IMG/VR virus record: IMGVR_UViG_3300025131_000070
Span: 1-48,253 of that record
Length of the DNA: 48,253 nt
Strand: one strand, 5' to 3'
DNA from: a virus
Shown: piece after piece, positions 29,143-47,028 of the stretch
How positions within the stretch are numbered: the stretch's first letter is position 1
How the letters are laid out: each line of letters starts with the position of its first letter
Made by a program: the position numbers and the translations under genes
The notes under the pieces: generated by a model
What the model saw: the letters and a program-made list of their open reading frames with translations, nothing else
The model's database searches: none
What the model was told of the DNA's origin: nothing

Positions 29143-29892
29143 CTACGGTGTCTCGGCCGCGACCTCGTCGGTCCCCACGTGCGTGAGGTCCGGTTCCGGC
29201 TCCCACGCACGCACCTCCACGTCGTGGCCGAAGCGGAGCACGAGCCAGTGGAAGACGTAGTCGACCACCGAAGTCGCGCCCGTGATCTCCGAGCAGCCCG
29301 TCGTTACGCCCTGTGGCTCGAACCGGGCGTACCGGAACTTGTCGGCGATGGAGTCGATCGGGACGCCGAACTGCAGCAGTAGGCTCGTCAGCTTGGCGAT
29401 GGTGTCCATCAGACCGCGCACGGTCGACCCAGCCTTCGACATGGTGACAAACACCTCGGCCGGTGCCCGATCGCTGTACAGGCCGACGTTGATGTAGCCC
29501 TCGTGACCGCCCACCGCGAACTTGTGGTTGATGGCCTCGCGCTCGTCCGGGAGCTTCCGCCGAATAGGTCCGAGCCTGGAGACGAAGACCGGCAGCCATG
29601 TGTCCAGGTCGGGGTGCAGCGTCGACGGGAACGCGGGCGGATAGCCCGTCGCGGCCAGCCGTTGGTGGATGCGGTCCCCGATCGCGAGCTGCAACGTGTC
29701 CTTGTCGTGTCGCAGCTTGATCGGCGCTGGTACAGGCGGTGGTGCGACGGGCCCATCCTTCTCCAGCCGATCCGCGAAGTCGCGGAGGAACTGTGGCAGG
29801 CCCTCCACGAGCAGCGCTGCGCAGTTGGCCTCCTCGGCCGCCAGCGTCTCCTCAAGCGTCTTGGTCGCTACTGCATTCGTCTTCACTTCCAT
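29143..29892 (-). CDS. Orphan TSCPD-domain protein (C-terminal part of class II ribonucleotide reductase)
   Basis: Residues about 110-215 follow the C-terminal domain of adenosylcobalamin-dependent ribonucleotide reductase closely: RRKLPDEREAINHKFAVGG, HEGYINVGLYSDRAPAEVF, VTMSKAGSTVRGLMDTIAK, LLLQFGVPIDSIADKF, RFEPQG, then SVVDYVFHWLVLRFG. The N-terminal 100 residues are helical and unlike the reductase barrel, and no catalytic subunit is found in the window. It could regulate the host or a phage reductase elsewhere, or have a new role on its own. It is one base away from the methyltransferase-ATPase gene, so the two are probably co-translated. Confidence 0.75.
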   Translation of the reverse strand: MEVKTNAVATKTLEETLAAEEANCAALLVEGLPQFLRDFADRLEKDGPVAPPPVPAPIKLRHDKDTLQLAIGDRIHQRLAATGYPPAFPSTLHPDLDTWLPVFVSRLGPIRRKLPDEREAINHKFAVGGHEGYINVGLYSDRAPAEVFVTMSKAGSTVRGLMDTIAKLTSLLLQFGVPIDSIADKFRYARFEPQGVTTGCSEITGATSVVDYVFHWLVLRFGHDVEVRAWEPEPDLTHVGTDEVAAETP

Positions 29893-29893
29893 C

Positions 29894-32671
29894 TCAGCCT
29901 CCCACCCGGATCACGTTCCAGCTCTCGGGGATGTCGTCGACGTGGTCGATGCGCGCCGCGGGCCAGGCCGCGAAGACCTGGTCGACCGTGCCGTCCGCAA
30001 CGTGCGCCTCGACCTGTTGCAACATGAGTTGCAGGTTGTCCGGCTCGAGCATGGCGAGGTCCTCGTCGTCGAGGAGCAGCACCCGCGTCGGCGCGTCTTC
30101 GGTCCACGCGAGCGCGAGCGCGACGATGATGGACGACTTCTCGCTGCCGCACATCGTGTGACGGCTGTGCGGGCGCTCGTCGTCGCCGACAGTACGCCAC
30201 TCGCACGCCTTGTCGGACAGCGTCAGCTGCGCCGTGAAGCCCGCCGGCATGTACCGGTTCACCGCCTCTTCGGCCTTCTTCTTCGTACGGCGCAGCGCGG
30301 CGGTCATCGCCTTCTTCGCCTCGGTCTTGAGCGTCTTGGCCGTCTCGGCGCGACGGCGCAGGACGCGGACGTCCGTCTCCATACGCTCCAGGTTGATGCG
30401 CGACGCTTCAGCGTTCCGGAGCTGGGCGATCTGCGCCTCGATCTCGGCGCTGGTCTGGCCCTCATAGTCTGCCACGTCACCGAGCGCGGCTTGCAGCGCG
30501 TCGATGTTCGCTTTGATGCTCTGCGCAGACACCTTGAGCTTGGCGCGGTCGTGCTTCGCCGTCGCGAGGCGCTGCTCTGCCTGCGCGACGAGCGCCTGGC
30601 CCGCATCGACGATCGACTGCGCCTCCTGCCGCTTCACCTCCGCGTTGTACGCAGACGCCTCCGCGTTGTTCTTCCGGAGCGCGACCATCTCGTTGATCTG
30701 CTGCAGACGCGCGTGCCATGCGACACCGGCCGTCGCGCAGAAGGGGCACGGCACCTCGTGCGGCGCAGGCTGCAGCATCACGCGCGCCAGCAGACTCTGG
30801 GCGTCGAGCCCGCGCTGATACAGAGCCTGCTCTTCAGCAGCCTCATCGAGCATCTGCCGCGCCGCGGCGAGCACCTGCTCGGACGAGGCGGTGGCTGCGT
30901 CACGCTCGCCTTGGAGCCGTGCGAGGTCGCTCTCGGCAGCCGCCTGCTCGGCGATGATGGCGTGCGCCTGCGGCTCCACGTCGGCCATCTGCGCCTCGGC
31001 GGCCGCGAGCGCGGAGCGGTTGGTCGCTTGCTGCTCGAACGCCCGCGCCTTGTCCCGCTGCGCCTCGAGCTCGGGTAGGAGCTCGACACCGGCGAGGTCG
31101 AACGCGATGTCGCGTGCGGTCTCCAGGTCCCGCTCCTTGCCGTTCGCTTCGGTGTTGGCGGCGCGCTGCGCGCGGTCGAGCCAGGACTGCATCCCGGCGA
31201 GGATCTCGGCCGCAGGCATCTGCTCGACGGCCGAAGCGACCAGCGCATCGGCCGACGCGAATGACGGCACGCCGGCGACGGCGCCGATGGCCTCGCACCA
31301 CAGGTCGCGCTGTGCCTCGTCGAGCGCCTTGGGGATCGGGATGGTCTTGAGCCCGCCGAAGCGGCGCATGATCGACTCGCGCGCCTTCTCCGCGCTCTTG
31401 CTGAGTAGGTCCCGAAGCGTCACCGACGGCAGCACGTGCTCGTAGTCCGCGACGCGCGCCGCGAGGTCTGGCGAGAACGTCGACGCCCCTGGCAACTTCT
31501 TGCCGGCCTCGGCCGAGTAGGCCGCAGTGAGCGAGCCGTTACTCAGCTCGGACGACAGGTGCTTGACCCCGTCCGGGACGAACTCGGCGACGTCCTTGCC
31601 GTGCACCAAGCCGGGGAGCTTGCCGGTCCACGCGAGGCGCACCGCCTCGATGCCCGCGCTCTTGCCCTTGCGGTTGCCGCCGACAAAGATGTTCAGCGCG
31701 CCCAGCTCGGCGGTGATCGGCACCTTCACGTTGGCGTTCATCCGCTCGAAGCGGACGGGTGTGGGATCGGGCGTCTCGGTCTTCGCGGTCTTTCGTCTCG
31801 TTGCCATGGCACGGGCTCCTGGTAGTGCATCGACGAGCAACTCCGTAGTGCGTCCCCGATGCTTCGGGTCGGCAGCGACGTTGCGGTCGACGGTGAGTTG
31901 ACGAGCTTCAGCGGCGGGCCAGTGTTCGGACAGCCACTGCGCGACGGTCGGCTCGTCAGCGTTGGAATAGATGACATGCGCACCCGCTTCGGTCCAGCGG
32001 GCGCACTGCTTGATGAGGTCTGTTTGGTCGTCGGCCGTGAAGCCTTCGGCCGTGTAGCTGACGAAGCCGCCGGACTCACTCCAGTACGGCGGATCGAAGT
32101 ATGCGACGTCGCCTTTGCCGACCTCGAACTCACGGTCGAACTGGCGGTAGTTGAGGTTCTGGATGTCGACGCCTGCAAGCGCGGTTGCGCACGCCTCGAG
32201 GTGCTCGAGGCTCGGCAGGTTCAGCTTGCGGAGCTGCTTGGTCGGGCGCGGCGGCACGTTCATCTGGCCGGACTTGTTCACGCGCCAGGTGCTGTTCAAC
32301 AGCACCTGGCGCAGCACGAGCTGCAGGCCGGCGTTGCTCCGTCGCGGGCCGTTGAACAGCTCGCGGAGCTTGAAGTACGTCGCCTTGGCGTCCTTCGCCT
32401 CCTTGAGCATCGTGTCGTAAGTCTGCGCCGCCTCGAAGACAGACAGCGGGTCTTGCTGCACGGCGACGAGGAGGCTCACGAGCTCGGGGTTCGCGTCCGC
32501 GATGACGGCGCTCTTGCCGTCGAGGAGCCCGGCTGCTTGCGCGGCGAAGAAGACCGACGCGCTGCCGCACATCGGCTCGACGTAGCACGAGAAGTCGGCC
32601 GGGAACCGTTCGAGGATCGAGGCGGTGAGCGCGCTCTTGCGCCCAATGTAGTAGACGAACGGGTCAGCCAT
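29894..32671 (-). CDS. D12-class adenine methyltransferase fused to Rad50/SbcC-like ATPase
   Basis: One frame of 925 codons carries two enzymes. Residues 1-285 are a Dam-like N6-adenine methyltransferase: YYIGRKSAL, YVEPMCGSASVFF (SAM binding) and YFDPPYW (193-196 DPPY, catalytic). Residues 289-925 are an SMC-type ATPase: Walker A GGNRKGKS at 331-338, two coiled-coil arms around a CPFC zinc hook at 642-645, a signature near 840 (CGSEKSSIIVALALAW) and Walker B TRVLLLDDEDLAML near 860. An internal ATG at 31807-31805 (codon 289) has AGGAG eight bases upstream, so the ATPase may also be made alone. No Mre11/SbcD nuclease is seen nearby. The start overlaps the previous stop by eight bases. Confidence 0.85.
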   Translation of the reverse strand: MADPFVYYIGRKSALTASILERFPADFSCYVEPMCGSASVFFAAQAAGLLDGKSAVIADANPELVSLLVAVQQDPLSVFEAAQTYDTMLKEAKDAKATYFKLRELFNGPRRSNAGLQLVLRQVLLNSTWRVNKSGQMNVPPRPTKQLRKLNLPSLEHLEACATALAGVDIQNLNYRQFDREFEVGKGDVAYFDPPYWSESGGFVSYTAEGFTADDQTDLIKQCARWTEAGAHVIYSNADEPTVAQWLSEHWPAAEARQLTVDRNVAADPKHRGRTTELLVDALPGARAMATRRKTAKTETPDPTPVRFERMNANVKVPITAELGALNIFVGGNRKGKSAGIEAVRLAWTGKLPGLVHGKDVAEFVPDGVKHLSSELSNGSLTAAYSAEAGKKLPGASTFSPDLAARVADYEHVLPSVTLRDLLSKSAEKARESIMRRFGGLKTIPIPKALDEAQRDLWCEAIGAVAGVPSFASADALVASAVEQMPAAEILAGMQSWLDRAQRAANTEANGKERDLETARDIAFDLAGVELLPELEAQRDKARAFEQQATNRSALAAAEAQMADVEPQAHAIIAEQAAAESDLARLQGERDAATASSEQVLAAARQMLDEAAEEQALYQRGLDAQSLLARVMLQPAPHEVPCPFCATAGVAWHARLQQINEMVALRKNNAEASAYNAEVKRQEAQSIVDAGQALVAQAEQRLATAKHDRAKLKVSAQSIKANIDALQAALGDVADYEGQTSAEIEAQIAQLRNAEASRINLERMETDVRVLRRRAETAKTLKTEAKKAMTAALRRTKKKAEEAVNRYMPAGFTAQLTLSDKACEWRTVGDDERPHSRHTMCGSEKSSIIVALALAWTEDAPTRVLLLDDEDLAMLEPDNLQLMLQQVEAHVADGTVDQVFAAWPAARIDHVDDIPESWNVIRVGG

Positions 32672-32966
32672 CGCCAGGCTCGAATGGTGCGTGCGCGACG
32701 CAAGCGGCGTTGCCGTTTAGCGGACACGTGCAGACCAGCCGGTAGACGTGCCCGAAGCGTGAGTCGTCGACGATCTCGGCGTGGCCGGCGTCGATGTACA
32801 GGCGCAGTAGCTTGCGGTCGATCGTCTTGATCTTGCTGGTCCGAAGGCAGCCGTTCACCGACTTCTGCAGGCGTTCGATGACGCGCATCGCTGCCAGGAG
32901 CATCTGCGCCTGCGCCGGTGCATCCATCTCGGCAATCACCTCAGCTACCTTGTACGGGTACTTCAT
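32664..32966 (-). CDS. Unknown protein, possible winged-helix or zinc-containing fold
   Basis: The ATG at 32966 overlaps the stop of the upstream gene (ATGA), so longer frames reaching to 33431 are rejected. The 100 residues begin MKYPYKVAEV with a helical first half (APAQAQMLLAAMRVIERLQ), then KTIDRKLLRLYIDAGHAEIV. The end contains CTCPLNGNAACVAH. Three Cys and His residues might bind a metal. The family is not recognised. It is coupled by eight bases to the methyltransferase fusion. Confidence 0.5.
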   Translation of the reverse strand: MKYPYKVAEVIAEMDAPAQAQMLLAAMRVIERLQKSVNGCLRTSKIKTIDRKLLRLYIDAGHAEIVDDSRFGHVYRLVCTCPLNGNAACVAHAPFEPGDG

Positions 32967-33157: not shown

Positions 33158-34329
33158 CAGTTCGGGTCCCGCGCCTTGATCGGCGCGCCGTTGAGCCGCG
33201 CTTCGATGCGTCCCTGCTCCTGTACGCGCTCCAGCTCGGACGCGGCGACCTGGTGGCCGGCTTGCCGCAACAACGCGATGGCGACGGTGCGAGCGACGCT
33301 GTCGATGATGCCGAGCGTCGTGGGCGAGGCGCCCCCGATCTGTCCCTGCCCGCTACCGATGAGCGCGCCGATCGCGGCCGCCTTGAACGCGCCCTCGCGG
33401 TCGCTGCCCGCACCCCAACGGTCCCGCGCATGCTTCTCGACGGCGCCCATGATCCGCGTCGCCTCGGTCGCGACGACGTTCGTCGCCATCTGCAAGATCT
33501 CCTGCAGCTCGAGGCCCTGCAGCGGCGGCTCGGACGCGGTCAGCCCCTCCAACGTCAGCGCGACCTGGTGCCGGTTGACGACAAGCGGTGTGGACAGGAC
33601 CGGCGCTTCGGGCGGCACGTGCGCTAGGTCGTGCGGGGCCTCTGCTTCGTACGCGGCCTTCGCCGCCTCGTACGTGGCCTGCGTGGCGTTCTCGGCTTCG
33701 AGCTGCTCGGCGAACTTCACGAGGATGAGCTCGCCCTGGTCCTCGATGACGACGCCCTCACCGATGCTGCCCTCGTCCGAGCGCAGGAACACGAACGCGC
33801 CCTCCTCGTACTTGTCGAGCTGCGTCGGCTCGGCCTCGACCTCGGGCAGCGGCGTGGCGCCGGGCCTGCGGTTATCACGGGCGCGCTGCTCGACGAGTGC
33901 TGGCGGAACGCCGGCCCAGTACGTCGGCGCGACGTAGTCCTCGCCAGCGACGTCGTCGTACGCCATGGCGCCGAACTCGTTCCAGACCTCGGCGTACGAG
34001 CACGACTCATCGACATACGGCGTAAGCCAGTCGATGAGCACCTCGGCCGCTTCCGCTTCGTCGCCCCGCATCTTGATCGACGAGTCCAGCTCGTAGTGCC
34101 GTCGGCCCTCCTCGTCCGTGCTCGCCTCGGAGCTATCGACGCCGGAGCACAGCAGTGTGGTCCAGTGCTCCATGAAGTCGGTGAACAGCGCGTGCTCCGG
34201 GATTTGCAAGTCAGCCTGCGCCGCTGGGTCAGCACCTGGGTCCGCCATGAAGTTGACGACCGCGATGATCTCGTCGGGCGTGTCCGCCTTCAGGCGGAAG
34301 TCGAGGGTGATGTCGAGGTAGTGTCCCAT
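33157..34329 (-). CDS. Unknown two-part protein
   Basis: The start is the ATG at 34329 (MGHYLDITLDF), coupled to the upstream stop as TAATG; an in-frame extension to 34458 is a shadow. In 390 residues, the N-terminal 145 form an alpha/beta domain (GHYLDITLDFRLKADTPDE, HYELDSSIKMRGDEAEAAE). The middle is acidic and helical with an Ala-rich part (ATQATYEAAKAAYEAEAP). The last 110 residues are a helical bundle (LQGLELQEILQMATNVVA, SVARTVAIALLRQAG). I recognise no catalytic motif. Its place in the accessory island beside a Tad2 homologue makes host interaction possible but unproven. Confidence 0.5.
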   Translation of the reverse strand: MGHYLDITLDFRLKADTPDEIIAVVNFMADPGADPAAQADLQIPEHALFTDFMEHWTTLLCSGVDSSEASTDEEGRRHYELDSSIKMRGDEAEAAEVLIDWLTPYVDESCSYAEVWNEFGAMAYDDVAGEDYVAPTYWAGVPPALVEQRARDNRRPGATPLPEVEAEPTQLDKYEEGAFVFLRSDEGSIGEGVVIEDQGELILVKFAEQLEAENATQATYEAAKAAYEAEAPHDLAHVPPEAPVLSTPLVVNRHQVALTLEGLTASEPPLQGLELQEILQMATNVVATEATRIMGAVEKHARDRWGAGSDREGAFKAAAIGALIGSGQGQIGGASPTTLGIIDSVARTVAIALLRQAGHQVAASELERVQEQGRIEARLNGAPIKARDPN

Positions 34330-34652
34330 TAGTTCTCTCCGATCGTTCGGTATTCGATGGTGCAGCCGGAACCGACAGCGTGGTCGATGCCGTACTGCAT
34401 GCCGCCGCTGATGCCGTAGTCGGTGTACACGGCGATGACGTGCGCGACGTTCTGCCACGCGAATCCGGCGTGGATACCAAGCTCGCGCTCGACGGGATCA
34501 GCGTCGTCGAGCACGCCTGGCTGCGTGTACAGCCCGTGACTCGCGAACGGCGCCTCGTTGCGCTTCAGGCAGTCGCTCATGCACCGCCGCAGGTACGTCA
34601 GGTTCCGCTCCACGTCGCCGGCGTACGGTGACTCGATGATGACGCGCTTCAT
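34329..34652 (-). CDS. Deoxyribosyltransferase-like Rossmann-type protein (DUF4406/DUF7768-like)
   Basis: The ATG at 34652 overlaps the upstream stop (ATGA). The 107 residues read MKRVIIESPYAGDVERNLT, a helix, EAPFASHGLYTQPGVLDD, GIHAGFAWQNVAHVIAVYTD then YGISGGMQYGIDHA. This matches small phage proteins related in pattern to nucleoside 2-deoxyribosyltransferases: a PYAG loop, a central YTD strand and GISGGM before a helix. In the transferases those loops bind nucleoside or NAD-type ligands. A role in nucleotide metabolism or in meddling with nucleotide signals is inference. Confidence 0.55.
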   Translation of the reverse strand: MKRVIIESPYAGDVERNLTYLRRCMSDCLKRNEAPFASHGLYTQPGVLDDADPVERELGIHAGFAWQNVAHVIAVYTDYGISGGMQYGIDHAVGSGCTIEYRTIGEN

Positions 34653-34942
34653 GTTCGGGCGCTCCTGACCTGCTCGTGCAGGTGTGCCGGTGAGTAGCCG
34701 AACACGTCGGCCAGCACGCGCCAGGAGAGCCCGGACGCGCGCAGGTCTCGAACGTGCGCGACGTCGAGCGCCGAGCGTTTGCCGGAACGTGCCGCGCTTC
34801 GGTGCCCGTGCTTGCGCGCCCAGTTCACGATCGTCTGCCGATCGCGGCCGAGATCCTCGCCGATCTCGCGGTACGACCGGTTGCCCGCGAGCAGCTCGAC
34901 GATGCGCGCCATCTCGTGCTCCTGCAGATGCCGATAACTCAC
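34649..34942 (-). CDS. Small DNA-binding protein with two helix-turn-helix segments
   Basis: The protein has 97 residues. One HTH lies at about 10-45 (ARIVELLAGNRSYREIGED then LGRDRQTIVNWARKHG), like the resolvase or HTH_7 type. A second, shorter one lies near 62-90 (VRDLRASGLSWRVLADVF then GYSPAHLHEQ). The linker is basic. Two HTH units in a small protein suggest a transcriptional regulator or a site-specific binding subunit. No catalytic domain is attached, so it is not a recombinase. It overlaps both neighbours by ATGA-type junctions. Confidence 0.6.
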   Translation of the reverse strand: MSYRHLQEHEMARIVELLAGNRSYREIGEDLGRDRQTIVNWARKHGHRSAARSGKRSALDVAHVRDLRASGLSWRVLADVFGYSPAHLHEQVRSART

Positions 34943-35160
34943 TGCAGCACCTCGGCCGGGACGAGCTGGACCGCCGTGGCGTAGCGCTCGCTGATGTTGA
35001 CATGCGCCGCGCGCCAGGCGCGAAGCCGCGCGTGGGCAACGGCGAACGCATCGTCGAGGTCGTCGACCGTCACGGTTCCCAGCATGAGGTCAGGGACCCG
35101 CCAGCGCGTGGCCTGCGCGGTGGCTTCGAAGGTCGTGGGGCGGCCAAGTGGGATCGTCAT
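34939..35160 (-). CDS. Unknown small protein
   Basis: The protein has 73 residues and is mostly helical (DDLDDAFAVAHARLRAWRAAH), with Trp/Arg in the first third and no Cys. It overlaps the gene after it by four bases and follows the Tad2-like gene with a single-base gap. No family is recognised. Confidence 0.45.
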   Translation of the reverse strand: MTIPLGRPTTFEATAQATRWRVPDLMLGTVTVDDLDDAFAVAHARLRAWRAAHVNISERYATAVQLVPAEVLQ

Positions 35161-35395: not shown

Positions 35396-38308
35396 TCAGC
35401 CTTGCTCTGCCCAAGTTTTGGTCGCGAGGACCTCGTCGCCGGGCAGGGGCAGCCCGTCCAGCTCCGCGTACATGGCGTCCTCGATGATGGCCTTTGCTTC
35501 GTCGGCGCGTGACTCCGGGACGTAGACGCCGAGGTAGTCGTGGACCTGCAGGCATAGACCGGTCCACCGCGACCACTTCCCGAACGGGATCTGGTCGGCG
35601 ACCTTCAAGATCGCGTCGTTCATGAGCGCCGCGGCCGTGCCCTGGATCGTGTGATTCGGCGGTGCGTTCTTCTTGCTAGGTCCGCCGGGGAAGAAGCGCT
35701 TGCGCAGGTGGATGCGGTCCGCGACGTAGCCGAACTCGCGGACCGCCGACGCGATCGTGTGCTGCCAGATCTTCGTCTCGGGGTGGAGCTGGTGCCAGCG
35801 CTTGTGCCAGCGCTCCGCGTCGGCCGGTTGGATCGTCGGGAACGTGCGGGCGCCGGTCGCCTTGTCGCGCTCGCTGAACATGGTCTGGAACAGCTTGTCC
35901 TCTTCGCCGCCGTACGCCTCGAGGTACTGCACGCGCTTGGCCACCGTGCGCACGTACTTCTTCTTGCCCTTCGGGAGCTTCTTCAGGACGTGGTACGTGT
36001 CCATGATGTCGGCGTCGGTCGGGTTGGCGGCTTCGCAAAACAGCGTCGCGGCGTTCAGCAAGTGCGGGTCCATCGGGACGCCGTCGCGGTCCTTGCCGCC
36101 GAATGCCCGGAGCAGGAACTGATCGCGGGCGAAGAGCGCGTAGAGCCGCTGCTCGATCTGTGCGAGGTCACTGCCGACGATGACGTGCCCTGGGGGCGCC
36201 ACGACCAGCTCGCGCAGGTTCGTCGGGACGCCCCGCAGCGGCAGTCCGGTCTTCGGGTCCTGCACCCAGCCCTGCCCCGCCTCGTCGTAGATGTAGGGCG
36301 CGAAGGCGCGCGCGGGCCAGTTCTGCGCGTTGGGTGAGCTGGCCCAGCGGCCGGACGGCACGACGTGGATCTTCCACGTGACGTTGAGCAGCGAGAGCGC
36401 AGGGCGTCGACTGAGGATCGTCTCGCCGTCGAGCATCACGGCATCGGCGTAGCCGTTGCCGGCCAGGTCCTTGACGTTCCGGACCTTGGCGTTGTCGATG
36501 TACGAGCCGCGGAGCTTGTCACAGCTCCGGAACTCGATGAGCGCGTCGATGGCCTTCTCGACGTTGGCGGCGACGCCCTGGTCGAGCAGCTGCAGCAGCG
36601 CGGGCGTCGACACCGAGATGTCGTCGCCCTCTTCCCACTCGTGACCCTGCGGCGTCATCACTGGCGAGTAGGACAGGTCGTCGAAGAGCCACGTCCCGAC
36701 CTGCTGCGGCGAGTTGGGGTTGATCGGCTTGCCCGCCGTGTCTTGGAACTTCTTGGTCAGGTCACGGCAGAGCCGGTTGAACGTCAGGCTCAGCTCACCG
36801 CGACGGCGCTCGTCGACGACCAGGCCGAGGTCGCCCATCTGCGACGCGACGGGCGCAAGGCGCGAGTCGACCATGAACTGCTGCTTGGTGCCGCACGCGA
36901 GCACGTCGTCGCGGAGCAGTGGCCACAAGCGCCCGGTCACGAGCACGTCGTCCCCGCAGTAGAAGTGCAGGTCGAAGTCCTCGTCGACGTTGTCGGCCGC
37001 CTTGTGGTCGACGTCGTGCTTGTGCATCGGCGCCTCGAACTTGCGCCGCATGCAGAAGCCGAGGTCGTGCGGCAGGTCGTTCTCCATCGTGTCGTGATGC
37101 GCGAGCATCGTGTCGAAGCAGATCTTGCCGCGGTCGGGGAACATGTCGTGCCGGTGGAGCACCGGGACGTCGAACCCCATGAAGTTGTGGCCGACGATGC
37201 GGCAATGCTGATTGACGCGACGGACGGCAGCGACGGCGCGCTGGTAATGAGACGACCGTACCCAATACGGCCGGCCATCACGCCACAGGAACGGCACGAC
37301 GATGACGAGCTCGTGGTCGTTGGTGATCGGGTTCACCTCGGGCGTCAGCATGTACATGCCCACGCAGCGGATCCGCGCGGTCTGCGTGTTCGCCGAGTCG
37401 GTCTCGATGTCCTCGACCACGCGGCACTCGCGGTCTTCCTTGTGCGCGATCATCCAATCCACGGCGCGCTCGATCGTGTCGATGTCCGGGAAGATGCTGT
37501 ACTGCGGACGCTCCCAGTCGATCTTGTTGCCGCGCGCGGCGATGCGCGCCGCCTTGGCGATGTCGTCGAGGATGACGTGCTTGAACGCGCGGTTGCCGCG
37601 CATGGCGAACGCGGGGTGCAGCGTGGGCGCGATGATGACGCCGTGCTTCTCGCGCAGGTCGATGGGGCTGCCGTGTTGGTTCTTGATCGTGGCGACCGTC
37701 GGGACGCCGCGCTTGTCCTTGGCTTTGCCGTAGTGCAGGCCGTAGCGCTCGGCGGTCATGCGCAGCGCGTAGCCACCGACGGCGAGGATGGTCGACGCGT
37801 TCGCCTCCTCGATGTCGAGGTCCAGTCGCGGCCGGCAGCAGTCGAGCGGCGTCGGCTTGGGCCGGTACGTGGCGAGCGCTTCCTTCTTTGACAGCGTCCG
37901 GTTGCCGACGATGACAGGCCCGGCCTTCAGCGCCGCCAGCTTGCGCTTCTCTTCGCGGCCGAGACGCTCGATGTAGCTCTTGAGCCCTTCGGGCGGCTGA
38001 CACAGCAGCGTGTTGGTGATCGAGGTGTGGTCGCGGGTCAGGCCACCACGCGCGAGTCCTTCAGCGAGGTCTGCGCCAGAGCGGCCGACGAACGGGCGAC
38101 CCTGCGCGACCTCATGCTTGCCTGGCGCCTCGCCGATGGCGATGAGCTGGGAGTCGCGTCGAATCTCGCCGAGCACCGGACCGCGGTGGCACCCGAAGAG
38201 CGGGCACTCCGTGCAGCGCGCGCCGCGTGCGATGGCGCCGGCGTGCGCTTCCTCGGCGCTGTAGGGCCGAACGATGGGTCCGTCGTCGAAGATGCGCAGG
38301 TCAGCCAT
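35396..38308 (-). CDS. Family A DNA polymerase fused to family 4 uracil-DNA glycosylase
   Basis: The ATG at 38308 is chosen; a GTG at 38341 with GGAG close upstream is an alternative. Residues 30-270 are a family 4 uracil-DNA glycosylase with the four FeS-type Cys (C32, C35, C103 and one in LDCCRP), GEAPGKHE at 59-66, GRPFVGRSG and APTLHPAFAMRG. About 300-480 is a DEDD exonuclease (VVEDIETDS, IVGHNFMGFDVP, YCGDDVLVT). Polymerase motifs follow: A (GSDLAQIEQR, near 712), B (AKRVQYLEAYGG) and C (QVHDYLGVYV, near 920). Motif C keeps the Asp but has Tyr in place of the usual Glu. SPO1-type phages also carry UDG-like parts on their polymerase. Confidence 0.88.
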   Translation of the reverse strand: MADLRIFDDGPIVRPYSAEEAHAGAIARGARCTECPLFGCHRGPVLGEIRRDSQLIAIGEAPGKHEVAQGRPFVGRSGADLAEGLARGGLTRDHTSITNTLLCQPPEGLKSYIERLGREEKRKLAALKAGPVIVGNRTLSKKEALATYRPKPTPLDCCRPRLDLDIEEANASTILAVGGYALRMTAERYGLHYGKAKDKRGVPTVATIKNQHGSPIDLREKHGVIIAPTLHPAFAMRGNRAFKHVILDDIAKAARIAARGNKIDWERPQYSIFPDIDTIERAVDWMIAHKEDRECRVVEDIETDSANTQTARIRCVGMYMLTPEVNPITNDHELVIVVPFLWRDGRPYWVRSSHYQRAVAAVRRVNQHCRIVGHNFMGFDVPVLHRHDMFPDRGKICFDTMLAHHDTMENDLPHDLGFCMRRKFEAPMHKHDVDHKAADNVDEDFDLHFYCGDDVLVTGRLWPLLRDDVLACGTKQQFMVDSRLAPVASQMGDLGLVVDERRRGELSLTFNRLCRDLTKKFQDTAGKPINPNSPQQVGTWLFDDLSYSPVMTPQGHEWEEGDDISVSTPALLQLLDQGVAANVEKAIDALIEFRSCDKLRGSYIDNAKVRNVKDLAGNGYADAVMLDGETILSRRPALSLLNVTWKIHVVPSGRWASSPNAQNWPARAFAPYIYDEAGQGWVQDPKTGLPLRGVPTNLRELVVAPPGHVIVGSDLAQIEQRLYALFARDQFLLRAFGGKDRDGVPMDPHLLNAATLFCEAANPTDADIMDTYHVLKKLPKGKKKYVRTVAKRVQYLEAYGGEEDKLFQTMFSERDKATGARTFPTIQPADAERWHKRWHQLHPETKIWQHTIASAVREFGYVADRIHLRKRFFPGGPSKKNAPPNHTIQGTAAALMNDAILKVADQIPFGKWSRWTGLCLQVHDYLGVYVPESRADEAKAIIEDAMYAELDGLPLPGDEVLATKTWAEQG

Positions 38309-38327
38309 GGTCGAATGTGCCGGCCAC

Positions 38328-38386
38328 GCGTGCGCATGCACGCTTCTCCCACGGGCATGAGGGAGGGTAGGGCCGGCGGGCTACCC
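38328..38386 (-). other. Spacer with two hairpins upstream of the polymerase gene
   Basis: The 104-base gap 38309-38412 holds two inverted repeats: GGGTAG at 38365-38370 with CTACCC at 38381-38386, and GCGTGC at 38328-38333 with GCACGC at 38338-38343 (four-base loop). The second covers the alternative polymerase GTG. They may attenuate transcription or hide that start. I see no clear promoter. Confidence 0.4.
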
Positions 38387-38412: not shown

Positions 38413-39072
38413 CTACAGCAGGTCGGTCGCGGCCTGCGACGCTGCGGGCGCTGCCGCCGCTGCGACGTGCGCCGCCGCGCCGTTGGTGCCAGCGGCCGGA
38501 GCCGCGACGGCCGCGGCAGAGCCACCACCACGCTGCGCCGCCCACGCCGCCGCCTCGGGCGGCAGTGCGGTGCGGTGCGCGTTGATCGCCTTGTTCGCCT
38601 CGTAGCGCTCCTTGCTCAAGAAGAAGCCCGCCTTCGACGACCAGTTGCCCGTCTTGTCGTACAGCTCCGCACGCGCGGTGACGTAGCAGGTGCGGCCCTT
38701 GAGGGTCTCGCAGATCTGCTCGATGGGCATCTTGCCCACGGCCTCGAGCTTCTCGCGCTTCTCCTTGGTGGTGCCGGTCGAGTCCAGAACCTCGAAGAGC
38801 CGATGCGCGTTGGGACGGGGCGGGTCGCTCTTCGCCATGCCGGTGTACGGCACGTACGTGACGAGCTTCTTGCCCTTGTTGTCGTCGTCGCTCACGACCA
38901 GCGTGAAGATCACCTGGTAGTTCTCGCTGCTCTTGCTCTTGCCGGCGACGGCGTCCGCGATGGTCACCTCGAAGTCACCGTCGTGCGACAGCAGCTGCGA
39001 GGACTGGCCACCTTGCGGGCGCTCCCACGCGCCGGCACCAGAGAAGTCGAGAGGGGGAAGTGTGTCTGCCAT
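38413..39072 (-). CDS. SSB-like protein (DUF669-type)
   Basis: The protein has 219 residues. A strand-rich first 150 residues start with FEVTIADAVAGKSKSSENYQ, continue with IFTLVVSDDDNKGKKLVTYV, RLFEVLDSTG and GRTCYVTARAELYDKTG, as in DUF669-like phage single-strand binding proteins. The last 55 residues are Ala-rich and disordered, ending in ATDLL rather than the acidic tip of bacterial SSB. It lies between the polymerase and a recombinase-type ATPase, which fits a role on single-stranded DNA. AAGGA five bases before the ATG supports the start. Confidence 0.6.
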   Translation of the reverse strand: MADTLPPLDFSGAGAWERPQGGQSSQLLSHDGDFEVTIADAVAGKSKSSENYQVIFTLVVSDDDNKGKKLVTYVPYTGMAKSDPPRPNAHRLFEVLDSTGTTKEKREKLEAVGKMPIEQICETLKGRTCYVTARAELYDKTGNWSSKAGFFLSKERYEANKAINAHRTALPPEAAAWAAQRGGGSAAAVAAPAAGTNGAAAHVAAAAAPAASQAATDLL

Positions 39073-39162: not shown

Positions 39163-40242
39163 CTACAAGAGCGCGGCCGGGCTACTGCCGCTCGCAGCGA
39201 CAGTGAGGTCCGGCATCTCGCCCAGTGGTCGGGGGACGCTGTAACCAGCTCGGTACAGCGCCCAATGGAATTGGTCGATCGCGATGGACTCACCGACGCC
39301 GAAGTCCCGGAACTTCCGGAAGTGCGTCTCGGTGAGCTTGGTCATCAGCTTGCGGTTACCGAGGTTGTCGATCACGCCCTCGAGTACGGCGTCGGCGATC
39401 GCGCTGACGGCGGTGCGCAACGGTCCCGTCGTGAGCTGGGGTCCGCCGCGATACTTGAGCTCGCCCATGCGCTGCGGTGGATCGGTCTTCGCCTGGCCGA
39501 AGTACGCCGGGTCCGCGCGGTGGCAGACCAACGCCATGAAGCACTCCAGTGAGCGCGGGACGTTGGTGAACCAGTCGACGAACTCGTTCATGCCGACGCG
39601 CCGGGCGAAGCCGGACTTGCGTAGGTCAGCGAGGCTCGTCTTGATCGCGCCGACGTTGGCGACCCAATCCTCGACGTCTTCGATCTCGCCAGCCCATCGG
39701 CGGAAGAACTCGGTGCCTTCGTCCCAGACCAAGCCGGAGTACGGCACGACACCCTTAGCGGCGCCGGCGCTGTACGCGTTCACGATGCGATAGGCCAACT
39801 CGAGGTTGGGCGCGCGGGAGCCGACATCGGCCGGCTTCAACTTCGGGATGACCTTGATGGCCACGCCGCCCTTGGCGTAGGGACGCTGCACGACCTTGAC
39901 GCCGGCCAAGCCGTCGAGGAACGGCGGCAGGTCGAGGATGCTCTTGTCCTTGGCGGCCGCGGGCGTCCATGCTGGGTTCCACGCGAACACGGTCCGCATG
40001 TTGAGCCCGAGCACCTCTTCGGGGTTCTCTCGACACCACGAGGCGTACGGCCGCAGCACCTGCTTGTTGGTGAGCAGGAACAGCGCGCCCGGCTTGTCGA
40101 CCTGGCCGCCGAAGCTCCGCGCAAGCAGGGTTGACTTGCCCCAACCAGGGTCGGCGGTGACGATGATGAATGGCCACTCGGTCATCATTCCGGTGGTGTC
40201 GGTCAGCGTCAGACCGATCTCGTCCTTCAGGATGCTATTCAC
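39163..40242 (-). CDS. RecA/Sak4-like ATPase
   Basis: The GTG at 40242 is preferred because GGAG lies nine bases before it. The 359-residue protein has a Walker A at 31-38 (DPGWGKST in IIVTADPGWGKSTLLARSF) and a likely Walker B in SGLVWDEGTEFF near 180. A middle segment (PRSLECFMALVCHRAD) resembles sensor strands of RecA-fold AAA_24 proteins. Such proteins, called Sak4, anneal or exchange DNA strands and are usually coded beside an SSB and a nuclease, as here. It lacks a helicase signature. A packaging-type ATPase is unlikely because no nuclease domain follows. Confidence 0.55.
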   Translation of the reverse strand: MNSILKDEIGLTLTDTTGMMTEWPFIIVTADPGWGKSTLLARSFGGQVDKPGALFLLTNKQVLRPYASWCRENPEEVLGLNMRTVFAWNPAWTPAAAKDKSILDLPPFLDGLAGVKVVQRPYAKGGVAIKVIPKLKPADVGSRAPNLELAYRIVNAYSAGAAKGVVPYSGLVWDEGTEFFRRWAGEIEDVEDWVANVGAIKTSLADLRKSGFARRVGMNEFVDWFTNVPRSLECFMALVCHRADPAYFGQAKTDPPQRMGELKYRGGPQLTTGPLRTAVSAIADAVLEGVIDNLGNRKLMTKLTETHFRKFRDFGVGESIAIDQFHWALYRAGYSVPRPLGEMPDLTVAASGSSPAALL

Positions 40243-40270
40243 AGGCACGGGCTCCAGCGCGTCGGCGCGG

Positions 40271-41239
40271 TTAGGCTTGGGTCGGAAGTTGTACGAGCTC
40301 CGGCGCGGAGAACTCGCCGGCGAGCACACGGGCCTGCTGATCTTTGGACCGCGCCGCGCACACGTTGAAATAGTCGCACTTGCCGTAGCGGCCTTCGCAC
40401 GCCGCGTAGTTCGGTGTCGGCTTGCCGCCGGCTTCGATCTTCTTGGTCACGGCGGCCTCGCGGCGCACGGCTTCGACCATCATCAGCTTGCTGTCGTTGT
40501 ACGCCAACTCGGGCGGCCGTAGTGCGTGTCGGTCGCCGTCGTACGGCAGCGTCCGCTTGATGCGGTTGATCGCGAAGCCGCGGAGCGGATACTTGATGGG
40601 CAGCTCGTCCTGGTTCCGGCAGATGTGCAGGTTCTGAAACACCTGGAAGGACAAGCCGAAGTCGCCGTCCTCCTTCCACTTGGCCAAGCGCCCGCTGTTC
40701 GCACCGCGCTGCGTCTTGTGGTCGACGATCCACGCCTCGCCGTTCCACACGACCACCAGGTCGTTGCGGCAGGTGATGACCTCGTCGCGCAGATCCGGTG
40801 GGCACGCGTCGCCGACGATGCGTCCCAGCGTCGACCGGAACTCCTCCTCGACGTACAGCGGGTGCCAGTGCTCGGCCGCGTACCGGCGTTTGCACCACTC
40901 CCCGATCTCCTTCGCCTGGCGAATGAGGTCCGGGTAGCCCTTGCCGTCCTCGAGCAGCGCCGTCTCGACGTCCGGCTTCTCCACGTACCAGTCCGGCGTG
41001 ACGTCGACCTTCTCGGCGAACCAGTAGGCGAGGATCGTGTGCACCAGCGTTCCCAGGAGCTGGTACGACTTCTGCGCCTTGGGGCGGATGTACATGTGGT
41101 AGCGGAGCGCCCAGAGGCGCTCGCAGGTCAGCACGGCCGCGAGTCGGTGCGAGCCGCGGGCTGAGCTGCCCGAGACGCCCGAGGTCGAGGGGCGCGCCGA
41201 GAGCTTGGACGGCGACGCGCCTAGTGATGAGTCGAGCAC
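40271..41239 (-). CDS. Cas4/RecB-like PD-(D/E)XK nuclease
   Basis: The start is the GTG at 41239, with GGAGG five bases upstream; a longer frame to 41335 runs through the tRNA-like element and is rejected. In 322 residues, Cys39 (LTCERLW) and three later Cys (YAACEGRYGKCDYFNVC) make the Fe-S cluster pattern of Cas4 and AddB nucleases. His67 in GTLVHTILAYW, the Asp in CRNDLVVVW and the Asp/Lys of WIVDHKT form the metal-binding nuclease core. It probably trims DNA ends for the adjacent Sak4-like protein. There is no helicase domain on the same chain. Confidence 0.8.
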   Translation of the reverse strand: MLDSSLGASPSKLSARPSTSGVSGSSARGSHRLAAVLTCERLWALRYHMYIRPKAQKSYQLLGTLVHTILAYWFAEKVDVTPDWYVEKPDVETALLEDGKGYPDLIRQAKEIGEWCKRRYAAEHWHPLYVEEEFRSTLGRIVGDACPPDLRDEVITCRNDLVVVWNGEAWIVDHKTQRGANSGRLAKWKEDGDFGLSFQVFQNLHICRNQDELPIKYPLRGFAINRIKRTLPYDGDRHALRPPELAYNDSKLMMVEAVRREAAVTKKIEAGGKPTPNYAACEGRYGKCDYFNVCAARSKDQQARVLAGEFSAPELVQLPTQA

Positions 41240-41285
41240 GGTGCCCTCCGTTTTCCCCCGTACGGACAGCGCCGTCAAGAAGGTG

Positions 41286-41366
41286 GGCGCAGCGGAGGAC
41301 TCGAACCTCTGGTGCCGTCGCACCTCGCCAGGCACGGGCGCCGTCGCGCTCCATGACTCGCTGCAC
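41286..41366 (-). tRNA. tRNA-like element, atypical, isotype uncertain
   Basis: Minus-strand bases fold as a tRNA. GTGCAGC (41366-41360) pairs with GCTGCGC (41293-41287), with one wobble. A T arm carries AGAGG TTCGAGT CCTCC, including the invariant GGTTCGA. A short D arm is GTC/GAC with GG in its loop, and a variable arm GGTGC GACG GCACC resembles class II tRNAs. The anticodon stem-loop is weak: GCGCC/GGCGA with loop CGTGCCT, lacking U33, and position 8 is G instead of U. A G before position 1 can pair with the C at 73, as in tRNA-His. It may be a degenerate or specialised tRNA. CCA is not encoded in the correct register. Confidence 0.5.
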
Positions 41367-41371
41367 CACAG

Positions 41372-41584
41372 TCACGATGCGTCCTCCTCGGGGACGTACG
41401 GCTCGTTGAGGTGCGTCCCGACGTGGCCGGCGCAAGCGATCACCGGAACGCCGCAGCAGGTGTCATACTGGTAGTAGTCGACGATCTCGACAGCGCCCCA
41501 GCATGGCTCCTCGGCCGTGCCGTAGTCACAGTCGCCGAGGTACGACGGCGTGTACGAAGCGCTGCAGTGCTTGGGATACGTCAC
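41372..41584 (-). CDS. Small Cys-rich protein
   Basis: The GTG start overlaps the helicase stop as GTGA. The 70 residues have six Cys (KHCSAS, GDCDYG, EEPCWGAV, DTCCGVP, IACAGH) and a His (AGHVGTH), which suggests one or two bound zinc ions. The pattern of CxxPCWG then CxGH occurs in small phage proteins without known role. It ends six bases before the tRNA-like element. Confidence 0.55.
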   Translation of the reverse strand: MTYPKHCSASYTPSYLGDCDYGTAEEPCWGAVEIVDYYQYDTCCGVPVIACAGHVGTHLNEPYVPEEDAS

Positions 41585-43548
41585 GCTGCGTCCTCCCAGT
41601 CCTCTCCGATGTGGCCAGCCAGGCGCTCCAGCGTCTCGGCCAACGACTCCTTGACCTCTTCCTTGGTCATGGTCGCGCGGAGCTGGACGGCGCCCTCTTC
41701 GTCGGTGACGCGCGCGAGCGCGTCGACCTTCGGCAAGAACCGAGCTTCGCGGTGCTCATCGATCGTGCCTTTGACGACGTAGTACACCAGCGACAGGCCG
41801 CGCTCGTCGTACTTGCCGGTCTTGGGGTCGGGCTCGTACGGGCGGTCTTCGGCCTGCAGCATCGCGGACGGGTCGTGGTGCATGTCGATCCAGTGCTCGG
41901 TGACCGCGCCGCGGAGCGATACGCCGACCTGGAAGGCGCCGATGGTCATCACGAAGACGCCAGCGCCCTGATGCTCCCGGAACGCCCGCCCCATCTTCCT
42001 GCGCGCGTCGATGGACACCTCGCCGTGCGCACACCAAACCTGGCAGCGGACGTCGGCGAGGCGCCGCTTGTACTCGCGCTTCTTGCACTGCTTCTTGAAC
42101 GCGTCCGCGTAGAGCTCGGCCGAGTCGGGGTTGAAGCACACGACCATGATCTTCAGGCCCTCGATCAGCTCGGGCGTCGTGTTCTCGAGGACGTGCGGGA
42201 GCTTCACCTTGGCGGTCTGCGCCATCAGCTTCTTGGTCTTGTCGCCGATGTCCATCTTCCCGCGGAGGATGCGGCGCACGGCCGACATGGCCACGTCGGC
42301 CTCGATGCGCAGCACCTGGCGTTGCTTCTTCGGCAGGTCCGGCAGGATCTCCGAGCGCGGACGCATGATCGCGAAGTGCTGGATGCGCTGGTGCAGCTCG
42401 GTCTCGGCGTACTGCGACGAACCGCTGTTCTCCCAGCCGTACTCCCCCATGTCGCCGTTGCAGTAGCGCCTGTCGAAATCGAAGAAGAGGCGGTCATCGC
42501 TCCACGAAGTCGCCGCACCACACGACGCCGCGTCGAGCTGGCCCCACCAGTCCCGGACGTACGAGAACTGCGGCGTGCCGCCCACGAGCCAGCAACGGTC
42601 GATCGTCTCGGCGAGCGCGTTGAACTTCTCGCGCCGGGTCTGGCCCTTCTTCGTCTCGTCGGTGTTGCGCCCGCGGAGCATGTGCGCTTCGTCCGCGATG
42701 ACCAGGTCGAAGTGATAGCGCGCGAGGTGCGGCACCCAGCCCAGCAGGTCCGGACGGATGTACTTCACGCCAGCGGCGTCCTTGGCCTGCTGCGCGACGA
42801 TCAGCTCGTAGTTCACGATGACGTAGCGCGCCCGGTCGATCGTCTCGTGTAGCTCTTTGGCGCAGGCGGGGCAGGTCGTGTCGTGCTTCGTGCACGTGCC
42901 GTGGCCGGCGTCGATGAGCCTGAGCCCGTTGCTCTGCCCATTGAGGAGCTTGCACGCGTCGCACTGCGAGCCGTCTTCGGCGTGGAAGCCGCGACCCGCA
43001 CACTGCTTGCAGAACACGCGCGCGACTTTGCCGGCGCGGCCGTAGAGGATGACGGCCTCTTCGTCACACCACGCCGCGATCTCTTCGGCCCAGCCGAGCT
43101 TCGGGAGTGCGGGCACGACGCACAGGATCTTCTCGGCGCCGACCAGCTCGGCCGCGGCGAGCGTGATCGGCGTCTTCCCCGACCTCATAGGCTCGGCCAG
43201 GAAGCCCCAGTGCCACAGCGCGAGCTGGAGCGCGTCCTCCTTCTGGTAGCCCCGGAGCTTCTGCGCGAAGCCGAGCTCGCGATAGCGCGCGAGTCCCGGC
43301 ATCTGCATGACAGCCGCAACCCGGCTTGCTTCGTCTTGCAAGGGGAGTTGCGGAGCTGGCACGCCGGCCAGCGCGGCGACGGCCCACGCGATGTCCCACG
43401 TGCAGTTGAATCCGCCAGTGGCGCGTTGCACGCCGGGGATGGCGAGGATCTCGTCGGCCAGCGGGCCGTAGGCGTCCGCGCTGATGAAGCACGGGCGTTC
43501 GCCGCGGCGGCCCATGGACGGCATGATCTCTTGCGGCGAGAGCGTCAC
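41581..43548 (-). CDS. SNF2/SF2-type helicase with zinc clusters
   Basis: The GTG at 43548 overlaps the upstream stop (GTGA). The 655-residue protein shows superfamily 2 motifs: LRGYQKEDALQLAL and AEPMRSGKTPITLAA (motif I, near 115-125), VIADEAHMLRG (DEAH, near 285), GGTPQFS (III) and QAEDRPYE (VI). Between I and II are two Cys groups (CKQCAGRG with CDAC, and CTKHDTTCPAC), which likely bind zinc and DNA. The architecture resembles annealing helicases of the SMARCAL1/HARP type, so it may remodel replication forks. It is the second gene of the minus arm. Confidence 0.8.
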   Translation of the reverse strand: MTLSPQEIMPSMGRRGERPCFISADAYGPLADEILAIPGVQRATGGFNCTWDIAWAVAALAGVPAPQLPLQDEASRVAAVMQMPGLARYRELGFAQKLRGYQKEDALQLALWHWGFLAEPMRSGKTPITLAAAELVGAEKILCVVPALPKLGWAEEIAAWCDEEAVILYGRAGKVARVFCKQCAGRGFHAEDGSQCDACKLLNGQSNGLRLIDAGHGTCTKHDTTCPACAKELHETIDRARYVIVNYELIVAQQAKDAAGVKYIRPDLLGWVPHLARYHFDLVIADEAHMLRGRNTDETKKGQTRREKFNALAETIDRCWLVGGTPQFSYVRDWWGQLDAASCGAATSWSDDRLFFDFDRRYCNGDMGEYGWENSGSSQYAETELHQRIQHFAIMRPRSEILPDLPKKQRQVLRIEADVAMSAVRRILRGKMDIGDKTKKLMAQTAKVKLPHVLENTTPELIEGLKIMVVCFNPDSAELYADAFKKQCKKREYKRRLADVRCQVWCAHGEVSIDARRKMGRAFREHQGAGVFVMTIGAFQVGVSLRGAVTEHWIDMHHDPSAMLQAEDRPYEPDPKTGKYDERGLSLVYYVVKGTIDEHREARFLPKVDALARVTDEEGAVQLRATMTKEEVKESLAETLERLAGHIGEDWEDAA

Positions 43549-44273
43549 GGTATTGGTGCCTCGCCAGACGCCCAGCGCCGCATCAGCTCGTTGACGATCT
43601 CGTCGTCGGTACGTGTGTTCCATTCGGGCTCGAGCTGCCCAAGGTCGCTGGCTGGCCCGTCACAACTGTTGACCACGGGACCTGTCCCGTAGTCCGGGTC
43701 GTTAACATAGCGGAGCACGTCGTAGCGCATCTGCCGGATGTCTGGCACAGCGTCATCCTCGGTCTCGGCGTGCTCCCAGTAGCGCTCCAGCTCGATCTTG
43801 CGGATGTGCTTGCCGGTGACACCGTACTTCTCGCCGAGCGCTTCGTAGTCAGGCGCGACGTCGGCCTCTTTCGCCTTGCGCAAGTCGAGTTGCAGTTGCA
43901 GCGCGCGGGCGGTCGTCAGCACGCGGGTGCCGGGGTCGTCCGGGCGCACGAGGTAGCGCTGCGCGTTGACGACGTAGGTGACGGGCTCGAGGTGGTGCGG
44001 CGCGACGCAGAGCTTGTTCATGCAGAGGTGGTCGACGACCAGGTCCGGGTCGGTCCAGTCGTCGTGGTAGATCGCCACGCTGATCCGGTGCACGGGGTAG
44101 TTGCTCCCCTGGATGCGCATCGTCCCGTAGGGTCCGCTCTTGGCGCCGGTCCAGACCCAACACAGGCCGAGGTGCCGAACGGCCTCGGGGGTCTCTTGAA
44201 GCGACGCCTCGCGCCACTTCTTGTCGAAGCGCCGCTTCACGCCGCGCACGACAGGTACTGCTCGGTTCCGCAC
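43545..44273 (-). CDS. HNH endonuclease
   Basis: Residues 36-105 match the HNH_3-type motif: CWVWTGAKSGPYGTMRIQG, PVHRISVAIYHD, then VVDHLCMNKLCVAPHHLEPV followed by N. The His of VDHLC, the Asn of MNKLC and His of HHLE are the metal-bound residues. The second half is a helical, basic region with a likely HTH (YEALGEKYGVTGKHIRKIE), as in homing-type nucleases, and an acidic end. The GTG start has only a weak upstream AGGC. It is the first gene of the minus arm; a free-standing homing endonuclease or a replication nuclease are both possible. Confidence 0.75.
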   Translation of the reverse strand: MRNRAVPVVRGVKRRFDKKWREASLQETPEAVRHLGLCWVWTGAKSGPYGTMRIQGSNYPVHRISVAIYHDDWTDPDLVVDHLCMNKLCVAPHHLEPVTYVVNAQRYLVRPDDPGTRVLTTARALQLQLDLRKAKEADVAPDYEALGEKYGVTGKHIRKIELERYWEHAETEDDAVPDIRQMRYDVLRYVNDPDYGTGPVVNSCDGPASDLGQLEPEWNTRTDDEIVNELMRRWASGEAPIP

Positions 44274-46290: not shown

Positions 46291-47028
46291 TCACAGGCGG
46301 CACACCCGGCAGGAGTCGGCGGCGTCTTCCTCTTCCTCGTCTGGCAGTATGCCGTCCTTCGGGATGCCGCGCGGCGTGTCGCCGTCGGCGAAGCGGCGGC
46401 GGAGCTGGACGAGCTGCGCCGGCCACGTGTCCCTTCGCGGTGACCGGAACGTGGCGCCGATGCGCTCTTCCTGCTGCACCGCGTCCTCGTAGAGCTCGGG
46501 GTGCCGGACCCACAGCTTGTACCAGTCGGAGAGGCGCTGGCCGTAGCAGCGGGCGCAGTCCGTCCGCTCCGGGATCTTGATCCCCTTGTCCTTCAGGTAG
46601 CCGACCACGTCTTCGAGGCCCCAGTCCCACTCACGTAGCGGGAAGCGCGTGGTGACCTGCTCGCTGTAGATGTCCTGGCGAGCCTCTTCGTCGGCGCGAA
46701 GCCCGACGTACAGGATCGGGTCTTCGAGCTTCGACAAGTAGGCTAGCGTCGGCTCGATCTTCAGCAGCCTGGTGCACCAACGCTGCCGCCAGTTCGGCAG
46801 CGCGTCGAAGTGGTCGATCCACGCGTCCAGCGTCCGGTTGCGCAGCCGCACGATCGGCTTGCCGAGGATGCCCTCGAGCTTCGTCCAGTGCGCTTCCATC
46901 ACGGGCAGCTCGTCGCCGGTCGGCGTGCACAGGTACACGTAGTCGTCCCGGGGCTCGACTTCGGCGAGCCGGAGGGCCAGTGCGGTGCTGTCCTTGCCGC
47001 CCGAGAGGCCGATGACGTGCGCGCTCAT
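46291..47028 (-). CDS. PAPS reductase-like / DndC-type nucleotide alpha-hydrolase
   Basis: The ATG at 47028 overlaps the upstream stop (ATGA); longer frames are shadows. The 245 residues start MSAHVIGLSGGKDSTALAL, where SGGKDS (9-14) is the PP-loop that binds ATP or a nucleotide. Further features are WCTRLLKIEP near 90, DPILYVGLRADEEAR and DCARCYGQRLSDWYKLW. The acidic tail ends in DSCRVC. This family includes sulfur-transfer proteins such as PAPS reductase and DndC, which adds sulfur to DNA backbones. Whether it acts on DNA, tRNA or a metabolite is not known. It converges on the DUF927 gene with only nine bases between. Confidence 0.75.
   Translation of the reverse strand: MSAHVIGLSGGKDSTALALRLAEVEPRDDYVYLCTPTGDELPVMEAHWTKLEGILGKPIVRLRNRTLDAWIDHFDALPNWRQRWCTRLLKIEPTLAYLSKLEDPILYVGLRADEEARQDIYSEQVTTRFPLREWDWGLEDVVGYLKDKGIKIPERTDCARCYGQRLSDWYKLWVRHPELYEDAVQQEERIGATFRSPRRDTWPAQLVQLRRRFADGDTPRGIPKDGILPDEEEEDAADSCRVCRL

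Follow-up and report, generated by a model that had tools for sequence, protein, structure and literature searches.

Background

Rad50-type ATPases are known as partners of nucleases, and one phage replication gene, gene 4 of T7, is known to yield both a fused two-enzyme protein and a form without its N-terminal part (63 and 56 kDa). Here we describe a gene of an IMG/VR virus record (IMGVR_UViG_3300025131_000070, 48,253 nucleotides, analysed over its whole length and called the window below), in which a Rad50-like ATPase is physically tied to a DNA adenine methyltransferase. The working principle is comparable to that of the T7 gene 4 proteins, the enzymes of which are unrelated to those of the window fusion. 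T4 gp46, SbcC and Rad50 share with the ATPase half the ABC heads at both ends of the chain, the coiled-coil arms, the CxxC hook at the tip and a place in a replication-recombination module. Unlike them, the window protein carries an N-terminal methyltransferase, has an Asp in its Walker B motif, is very distant in sequence and was found without a gp47, SbcD or Mre11 partner. Nearly all jumbo phages, by contrast, are described as having SbcC paired with SbcD (PMC7824862).

The methyltransferase half is alike to the Dam/DpnM-type D12 phage methyltransferases over the whole domain and in its EPMCGS and DPPY motifs, but is here fused to an ATPase. In three relatives (L020, L026 and L029) the same position is taken by the phage N-6-adenine methyltransferase PF05869, an unrelated family of about 145 aa with an NPPY motif. 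Two further described systems come near to this arrangement. LmuB of Lamassu is likewise a small ATPase of the Rad50 kind, about 650 aa long, in which a CPxC hook is present and the Walker B Glu is changed (PMC10586767). In phages and conjugative elements, the DarB-like adenine methylase-SNF2 proteins join an adenine methyltransferase to an ATPase working on DNA (PMC5512222). A fusion spanning both halves was found neither among 50,697 phage records, searched for both fusion types, nor among 72,556 plasmid records, searched for the PF05869 type, and no published report of a methyltransferase fused to a Rad50-like ATPase was found in the literature searched. Both halves are of known kinds. As far as our searches went, the novelty lies in their combination, in the exchangeability of the methyltransferase and in a second start within the frame. 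The repeated fusion, or the swap of the methyltransferase, points to adenine methylation being directly linked, in phages, with replication or the handling of DNA ends.

Results and discussion

The fusion gene is open in two independent genomes

On the minus strand, 29894..32671 forms a single uninterrupted frame of 925 codons, with the methyltransferase in residues 1-281 and the ATPase in residues 289-925 (positions of all features are collected in Table 1). A close relative of 88 kb (IMGVR_UViG_3300008954_000025, hereafter G001) has the identical layout without interruption, and its fusion protein is 79% identical to that of the window. The relationship extends across the genome, as most G001 proteins are 70-90% identical to those of the window and the gene order is equal. 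Between the two fusion genes 25% of the synonymous codons differ, thus the junction has been kept open through real divergence, and since G001 is an independent contig with the same fusion, a sequencing or assembly error as its source is ruled out. An earlier note on this DNA, made from the letters alone, had proposed the in-frame fusion, and the open frame, the matched domains and the like fusion in G001 bear it out. The note had also named two observations that would speak against a fusion; the junction in G001 is free of stops, and the homologues are not always two separate genes, being fused in four of six. The homologue search that it suggested was run, and the order Dam-ATPase recurs in G001. 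The suggested structure of the full chain was obtained in part: a two-sequence AlphaFold model with a mean predicted local distance difference test (pLDDT) score of 43.8 gave a usable hairpin, the rest being too poor. The main start of the fusion is probably translationally coupled to the small upstream gene through their overlap. The window record is probably incomplete.

Two unrelated methyltransferase families in front of one ATPase family

The ATPase family is a rare one of uncultured phages and comprises seven loci, namely the window, G001, Virus Rctr197k (197 kb), L019, L020, L026 and L029. When viral contigs were searched directly with a single ATPase query or with three, just G001 was recovered; Rctr197k was found by tblastn, L019 and L020 via a profile of the UDG-PolA polymerase, and L026 and L029 via a five-sequence ATPase profile. 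The ATPase is fused in five of the seven. In Rctr197k it is 31% identical and stands as a separate gene immediately after polA, the sole D12 methyltransferase gene of this genome lying 15.7 kb away on the opposite strand, and in L019 the unfused ATPase gene overlaps the end of that for PolA. The fused methyltransferase belongs to the D12 family (PF02086) in the window and G001 and to PF05869 in L020, L026 and L029 (E 7e-27, 3e-34 and 4e-35, respectively); the fusions of the window and L029 are about 37% identical. The L029 contig was binned with a Gemmatimonadota genome and is probably phage, because it carries the same replication module; the start codon of its methyltransferase is uncertain. 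Three other candidates were set aside: L004 was a chance 20-residue match within an unrelated open reading frame, the contig of L021 ends within PolA, and L022 had no ATPase match.

The loci share the gene order SNF2 helicase, PD-(D/E)XK exonuclease, AAA ATPase, DUF669-like gene, UDG-PolA and (methyltransferase-)ATPase, which was scored as far as each flank extends and the genes are recognisable. The UDG domain of PolA was detected by Pfam in the window, Rctr197k, L020, L026 and L029. As the unfused ATPase of Rctr197k and L019 adjoins PolA in the same gene order, the ATPase belongs to the module and the methyltransferase came between the two. In the PolA tree a branch with support of 100/100 divides the fused loci from the unfused pair, and the window and G001 cluster with L026 and L029 at 98/97, leaving L020 outside. 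The D12 fusions are thereby nested among those with PF05869, which suggests either an exchange of the methyltransferase within the fusion or repeated fusion. The simple reading of these sequences, provisional with seven of them and some long branches, suggests one ancestral PF05869-ATPase fusion and a later D12 replacement in the fused state. Two or three independent fusions are a possible alternative history, because the ATPase tree resolves less well and the PF05869 domain of L020, at 47-48% identity to those of L026 and L029, is barely nearer to them than to other phage Dams (46% for the closest one from elsewhere).

Both halves keep their characteristic motifs

Pfam MethyltransfD12 covers residues 8-250 (E 1.4e-29, 104 bits against a cut-off of 22) and the NCBIfam profile 'dam' (TIGR00571) residues 3-280 (135.4 bits against a curated cut-off of 114.85), and the nearest solved structure in a sequence search of the PDB is DpnM. 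The motifs EPMCGS and DPPY, which the earlier note had described as intact, are present in the window and were both retained in G001. In our reading of the alignment, the window domain has kept neither the Lys in the KWxGGK start nor some other positions by which E. coli Dam recognises GATC, and the target site is therefore uncertain.

In the ATPase half the ABC head motifs (Walker A, signature and Walker B) lie at the N- and C-terminal ends, with core residues invariant in the family; GGNRKGKS, CPFC and MCGSEK agree with the Walker A, zinc hook and signature proposed from the letters. All seven members have LDD at Walker B, and because Asp thus replaces the catalytic Glu of Rad50, SbcC and gp46, we call the protein Rad50-like and not Rad50; this Asp would make slow ATP hydrolysis possible. 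The CxxC hook is found in six of the seven members. The window ATPase half alone gives weak library matches (AAA_23, E 0.05; the SbcC-like phrog_77, E 0.003), its L026 relative exceeds the AAA_23 cut-off (27.3 against 27 bits), and the family profile aligns with T4 gp46 over the full length (hhalign probability 94%) and matches its CPxC motif to the one in E. coli SbcC. An AlphaFold model of the ATPase with six family members (pLDDT 72.6) shows an antiparallel helical hairpin with CPFC at the tip. Its best fold matches in the PDB are Rad50 of the Chaetomium MRN complex (E 5e-6), LmuB of Lamassu (3e-5) and SMC; subunits of recombination endonucleases and phage proteins named SMC are among its viral fold matches. 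A sequence search of the PDB with the ATPase gave no significant match.

A putative internal start at the ATPase

The earlier note had pointed to a ribosome binding site and an ATG at codon 289. A Shine-Dalgarno (SD)-like stretch followed by an in-frame ATG indeed occurs at the start of the ATPase in all five fused loci, reading AGGAG in the window and G001, GAGAGGG in L020 and AAAGGA in L026 and L029. Ranked by SD strength among the in-frame ATGs of its gene, this site is 2nd of 18 in the window, 1st of 18 in G001, 1st of 23 in L020, 2nd of 8 in L026 and 1st of 9 in L029. L026 and L029 agree in just 43% of their synonymous codons, but 11 identical codons surround the internal ATG; this unusual stretch is the longest such run of the gene, the next having 5 (P 0.013 for its occurrence anywhere). 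Moreover, the junction codons of the window are rare in the phage (CCA 9%, GGA 6%, GCA 9% and AGA 0.4% of their codon families) and the same in G001, and fit a translation start better than ordinary coding. We therefore favour as plausible that the gene yields two products, one the full fusion and the other a free ATPase started at codon 289.

No Mre11/SbcD gene is visible in the window

That no Mre11/SbcD nuclease is visible, as first noticed from the sequence, agrees with the searches of the window. The Pfam family Metallophos had no match in the window, G001 or Rctr197k; neither had Metallophos_2, in a search of limited sensitivity that also missed the divergent L026 enzyme. A scan for metallophosphoesterase motifs, which recovered E. 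coli SbcD, T4 gp47 and the L026 and L029 enzymes as controls, found no open reading frame in the window, G001, the first 50 kb of Rctr197k or the L019 and L020 loci. A helix-turn-helix (HTH)-metallophosphoesterase is encoded shortly downstream of the fusion in L026 (8545-9837) and L029 (11552-12826); as a partner for the whole family it was rejected, not being found in the other five records. The PD-(D/E)XK exonuclease of the module is the most constant candidate for a nuclease partner.

Proposed role and alternatives

We favour, at somewhat below even odds, a replication or recombination tether that carries the methyltransferase to phage DNA and is produced alongside the free ATPase. An ATPase of the Rad50/SbcC/T4 gp46 kind from a replication-recombination module has acquired an N-terminal adenine methyltransferase by fusion. 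It would most likely dimerise via its heads and the CPFC hook and so grip replicating or recombining phage DNA, by which the fused methyltransferase would be brought to new or broken phage DNA and methylate it in place. The start at codon 289 would supply free ATPase, so that mixed dimers could form in which ATPase heads outnumber methyltransferases, and without a Mre11/SbcD gene the processing of ends would fall to the module exonuclease or to a host nuclease. As the methyltransferase half comes from two unrelated families, the joining of both jobs seems to matter to the phage. A more specific form of the proposal, possible but doubtful, is a Mre11-less Rad50-like tether with an exchangeable methyltransferase and a ratio set by the internal start, in which the coupling and not a particular enzyme is selected. 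Several observations weigh against the tether. TM-scores from Foldseek are low, at about 0.2, probably owing to the long flexible arms and an uncertain N-terminal ATPase lobe, to which the model assigns low confidence. The L020 fusion (L020:13605-16265) has a long low-complexity linker rich in Gly, Ala and Pro and lacks the CxxC hook. The SD strength at L026 and L029 is ordinary, 20% of the in-frame codons being as strong, and the 9 identical codons at the window/G001 junction are a run of unremarkable length (P 0.04 there, 0.997 anywhere). GATC occurs 305 times in the window against 328 expected and is neither enriched nor avoided.

The short linkers, with 8 residues in the window and almost none in L026 and L029, would also suit an accidental stop-loss, by which adjacent coupled genes for an orphan phage Dam and an ATPase merged into a fusion of no particular function while the internal start supplies the needed ATPase. 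The SD-like site and ATG at every fused locus and the gene overlaps common in the window genome point the same way, but the frame has stayed open over long divergence and with two unrelated methyltransferase families. Repeated neutral loss at one place is improbable, though one ancestral event followed by a swap needs only one, and we regard this explanation as unlikely. To an anti-restriction device, in which phage DNA is methylated rapidly while the ATPase grips it or carries the methyltransferase along, in a DarB-like manner, we give no better prospects. Phage Dams are commonly interpreted as protective, pairs of a methylase with an ATPase of another class are common in invading elements (PMC5512222), and exchangeable methyltransferase families suit a shifting host restriction. 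However, DarB-like proteins are large multidomain proteins with a superfamily 2 (SF2) helicase and are thought to be delivered with the element, whereas the ATPase here is of the ABC/Rad50 type and located in the replication module, not encoded with injected or virion proteins. As GATC is not avoided, there is no sign of strong pressure by a GATC restriction system, although a protected phage need not deplete the site. The earlier note had proposed that the fusion marks and tethers phage DNA or counters restriction, and the present results speak neither for nor against these two ideas as such. The interchangeable methyltransferase and the unfused ATPase behind UDG-PolA make a role in replication or recombination likelier than a stand-alone anti-restriction device.

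The fold matches to LmuB raise a further alternative, a phage-borne Lamassu-like sensor directed at rival phages or plasmids, in which the methyltransferase would label self DNA. The PADLOC LmuB profile matches the window (E 7e-11) and L029 (1e-13), mostly over the coiled-coil region, LmuB structures are among the top Foldseek matches, and the small size, the CPxC hook and the altered Walker B Glu are as in LmuB. Yet this Glu is usually replaced by Gln in LmuB (PMC10586767) and by Asp here, neither LmuA nor LmuC is among the ten neighbour proteins scanned, and the gene order is that of the replication module common to the relatives, which makes such a sensor improbable. An ordinary nuclease complex of the SbcCD or gp46-47 type, with Mre11/SbcD from the host or from an unsampled part of the phage and the methyltransferase as a passenger, seems to us the least probable. 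It would agree with the full-length gp46-like alignment, with the HTH-metallophosphoesterase near the L026 and L029 fusions and with possibly incomplete records; against it stand the lack of a partner gene in the window, the 88-kb G001 and the 197-kb Rctr197k, and by motif at L019 and L020, and the confinement of the L026/L029 enzyme to these two loci.

Neighbouring genes

Table 1. Features of the fusion gene and its surroundings, with positions in the window; residue numbers are those of the fusion protein unless marked otherwise.
Feature	Position	Strand	Remarks
Fusion gene, adenine methyltransferase + Rad50/SbcC-like ATPase	29894..32671	(-)	ATG to TGA, 925 aa
Dam/D12 (PF02086) adenine methyltransferase domain, residues 1-281	31829..32671	(-)	profile matches
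EPMCGS, S-adenosylmethionine (SAM)-binding motif, residues 32-37	32561-32578	(-)	
DPPY, catalytic motif, residues 193-196	32084-32095	(-)	
AGGAG, SD-like site within the frame	31816..31820	(-)	8 nt ahead of the internal ATG; same in G001
Internal in-frame ATG, codon 289	31805..31807	(-)	putative start of the free ATPase
Rad50/SbcC/gp46-like ATPase, residues 289-925	29894..31807	(-)	637 aa
Walker A GGNRKGKS	31658..31681	(-)	core residues invariant across the family
Coiled-coil arm 1, residues 529-632 (ATPase 241-344)	30776..31087	(-)	AlphaFold models
CPFC zinc-hook-like motif, residues 642-645 (ATPase 354-357)	30737..30748	(-)	turn between the arms
Coiled-coil arm 2, residues 652-729 (ATPase 364-441)	30485..30718	(-)	AlphaFold models
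ABC signature-like MCGSEK, residues 840-845	30137..30154	(-)	
Walker B-like LLLDDED, residues 865-871	30059..30079	(-)	Asp at the usual catalytic Glu position
TSCPD-domain gene	29143..29892	(-)	immediately downstream of the fusion; same place in G001 and L029
Small upstream gene	32664..32966	(-)	8-nt overlap of its stop with the start of the fusion
UDG-PolA DNA polymerase, N-terminal uracil-DNA glycosylase domain	35396..38341	(-)	anchor of the shared module
DUF669-like gene of the module	38413..39072	(-)	weak match
AAA ATPase gene of the module	39163..40329	(-)	weak AAA_16/AAA_24; Rctr197k counterpart AAA_24 E 2.3e-9
PD-(D/E)XK exonuclease gene, candidate nuclease partner	40271..41335	(-)	families phrog_1218/phrog_69
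SNF2-type helicase gene of the module	41581..43623	(-)	

Downstream of the fusion, the TSCPD domain, familiar elsewhere from ribonucleotide reductases, forms a protein of its own. A DUF7768 protein encoded between the fusion and PolA (34329-35051, minus strand) matches the phage nucleoside 2-deoxyribosyltransferase family phrog_355. No cognate restriction endonuclease was recognised among the neighbour proteins scanned, and the PD-(D/E)XK gene falls into the exonuclease families phrog_1218/phrog_69. The PolA proteins of L026 and L029 (L026:2503-5709 and L029:4908-8114) have an intein-like insert in the exonuclease region (Intein_splicing, weak, E 0.01-0.03), and that of L020 has a different insert inside the UDG domain with a weak LAGLIDADG match. 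A gene of the PAPS-reductase family (46291-47121, minus strand) matches the PADLOC SspD profile with E 5e-42 and DndC weakly, which may reflect DNA sulfur modification or mere family resemblance. A tail sheath protein gene lies on the plus strand (5330-8053), and the phage is therefore probably contractile-tailed.

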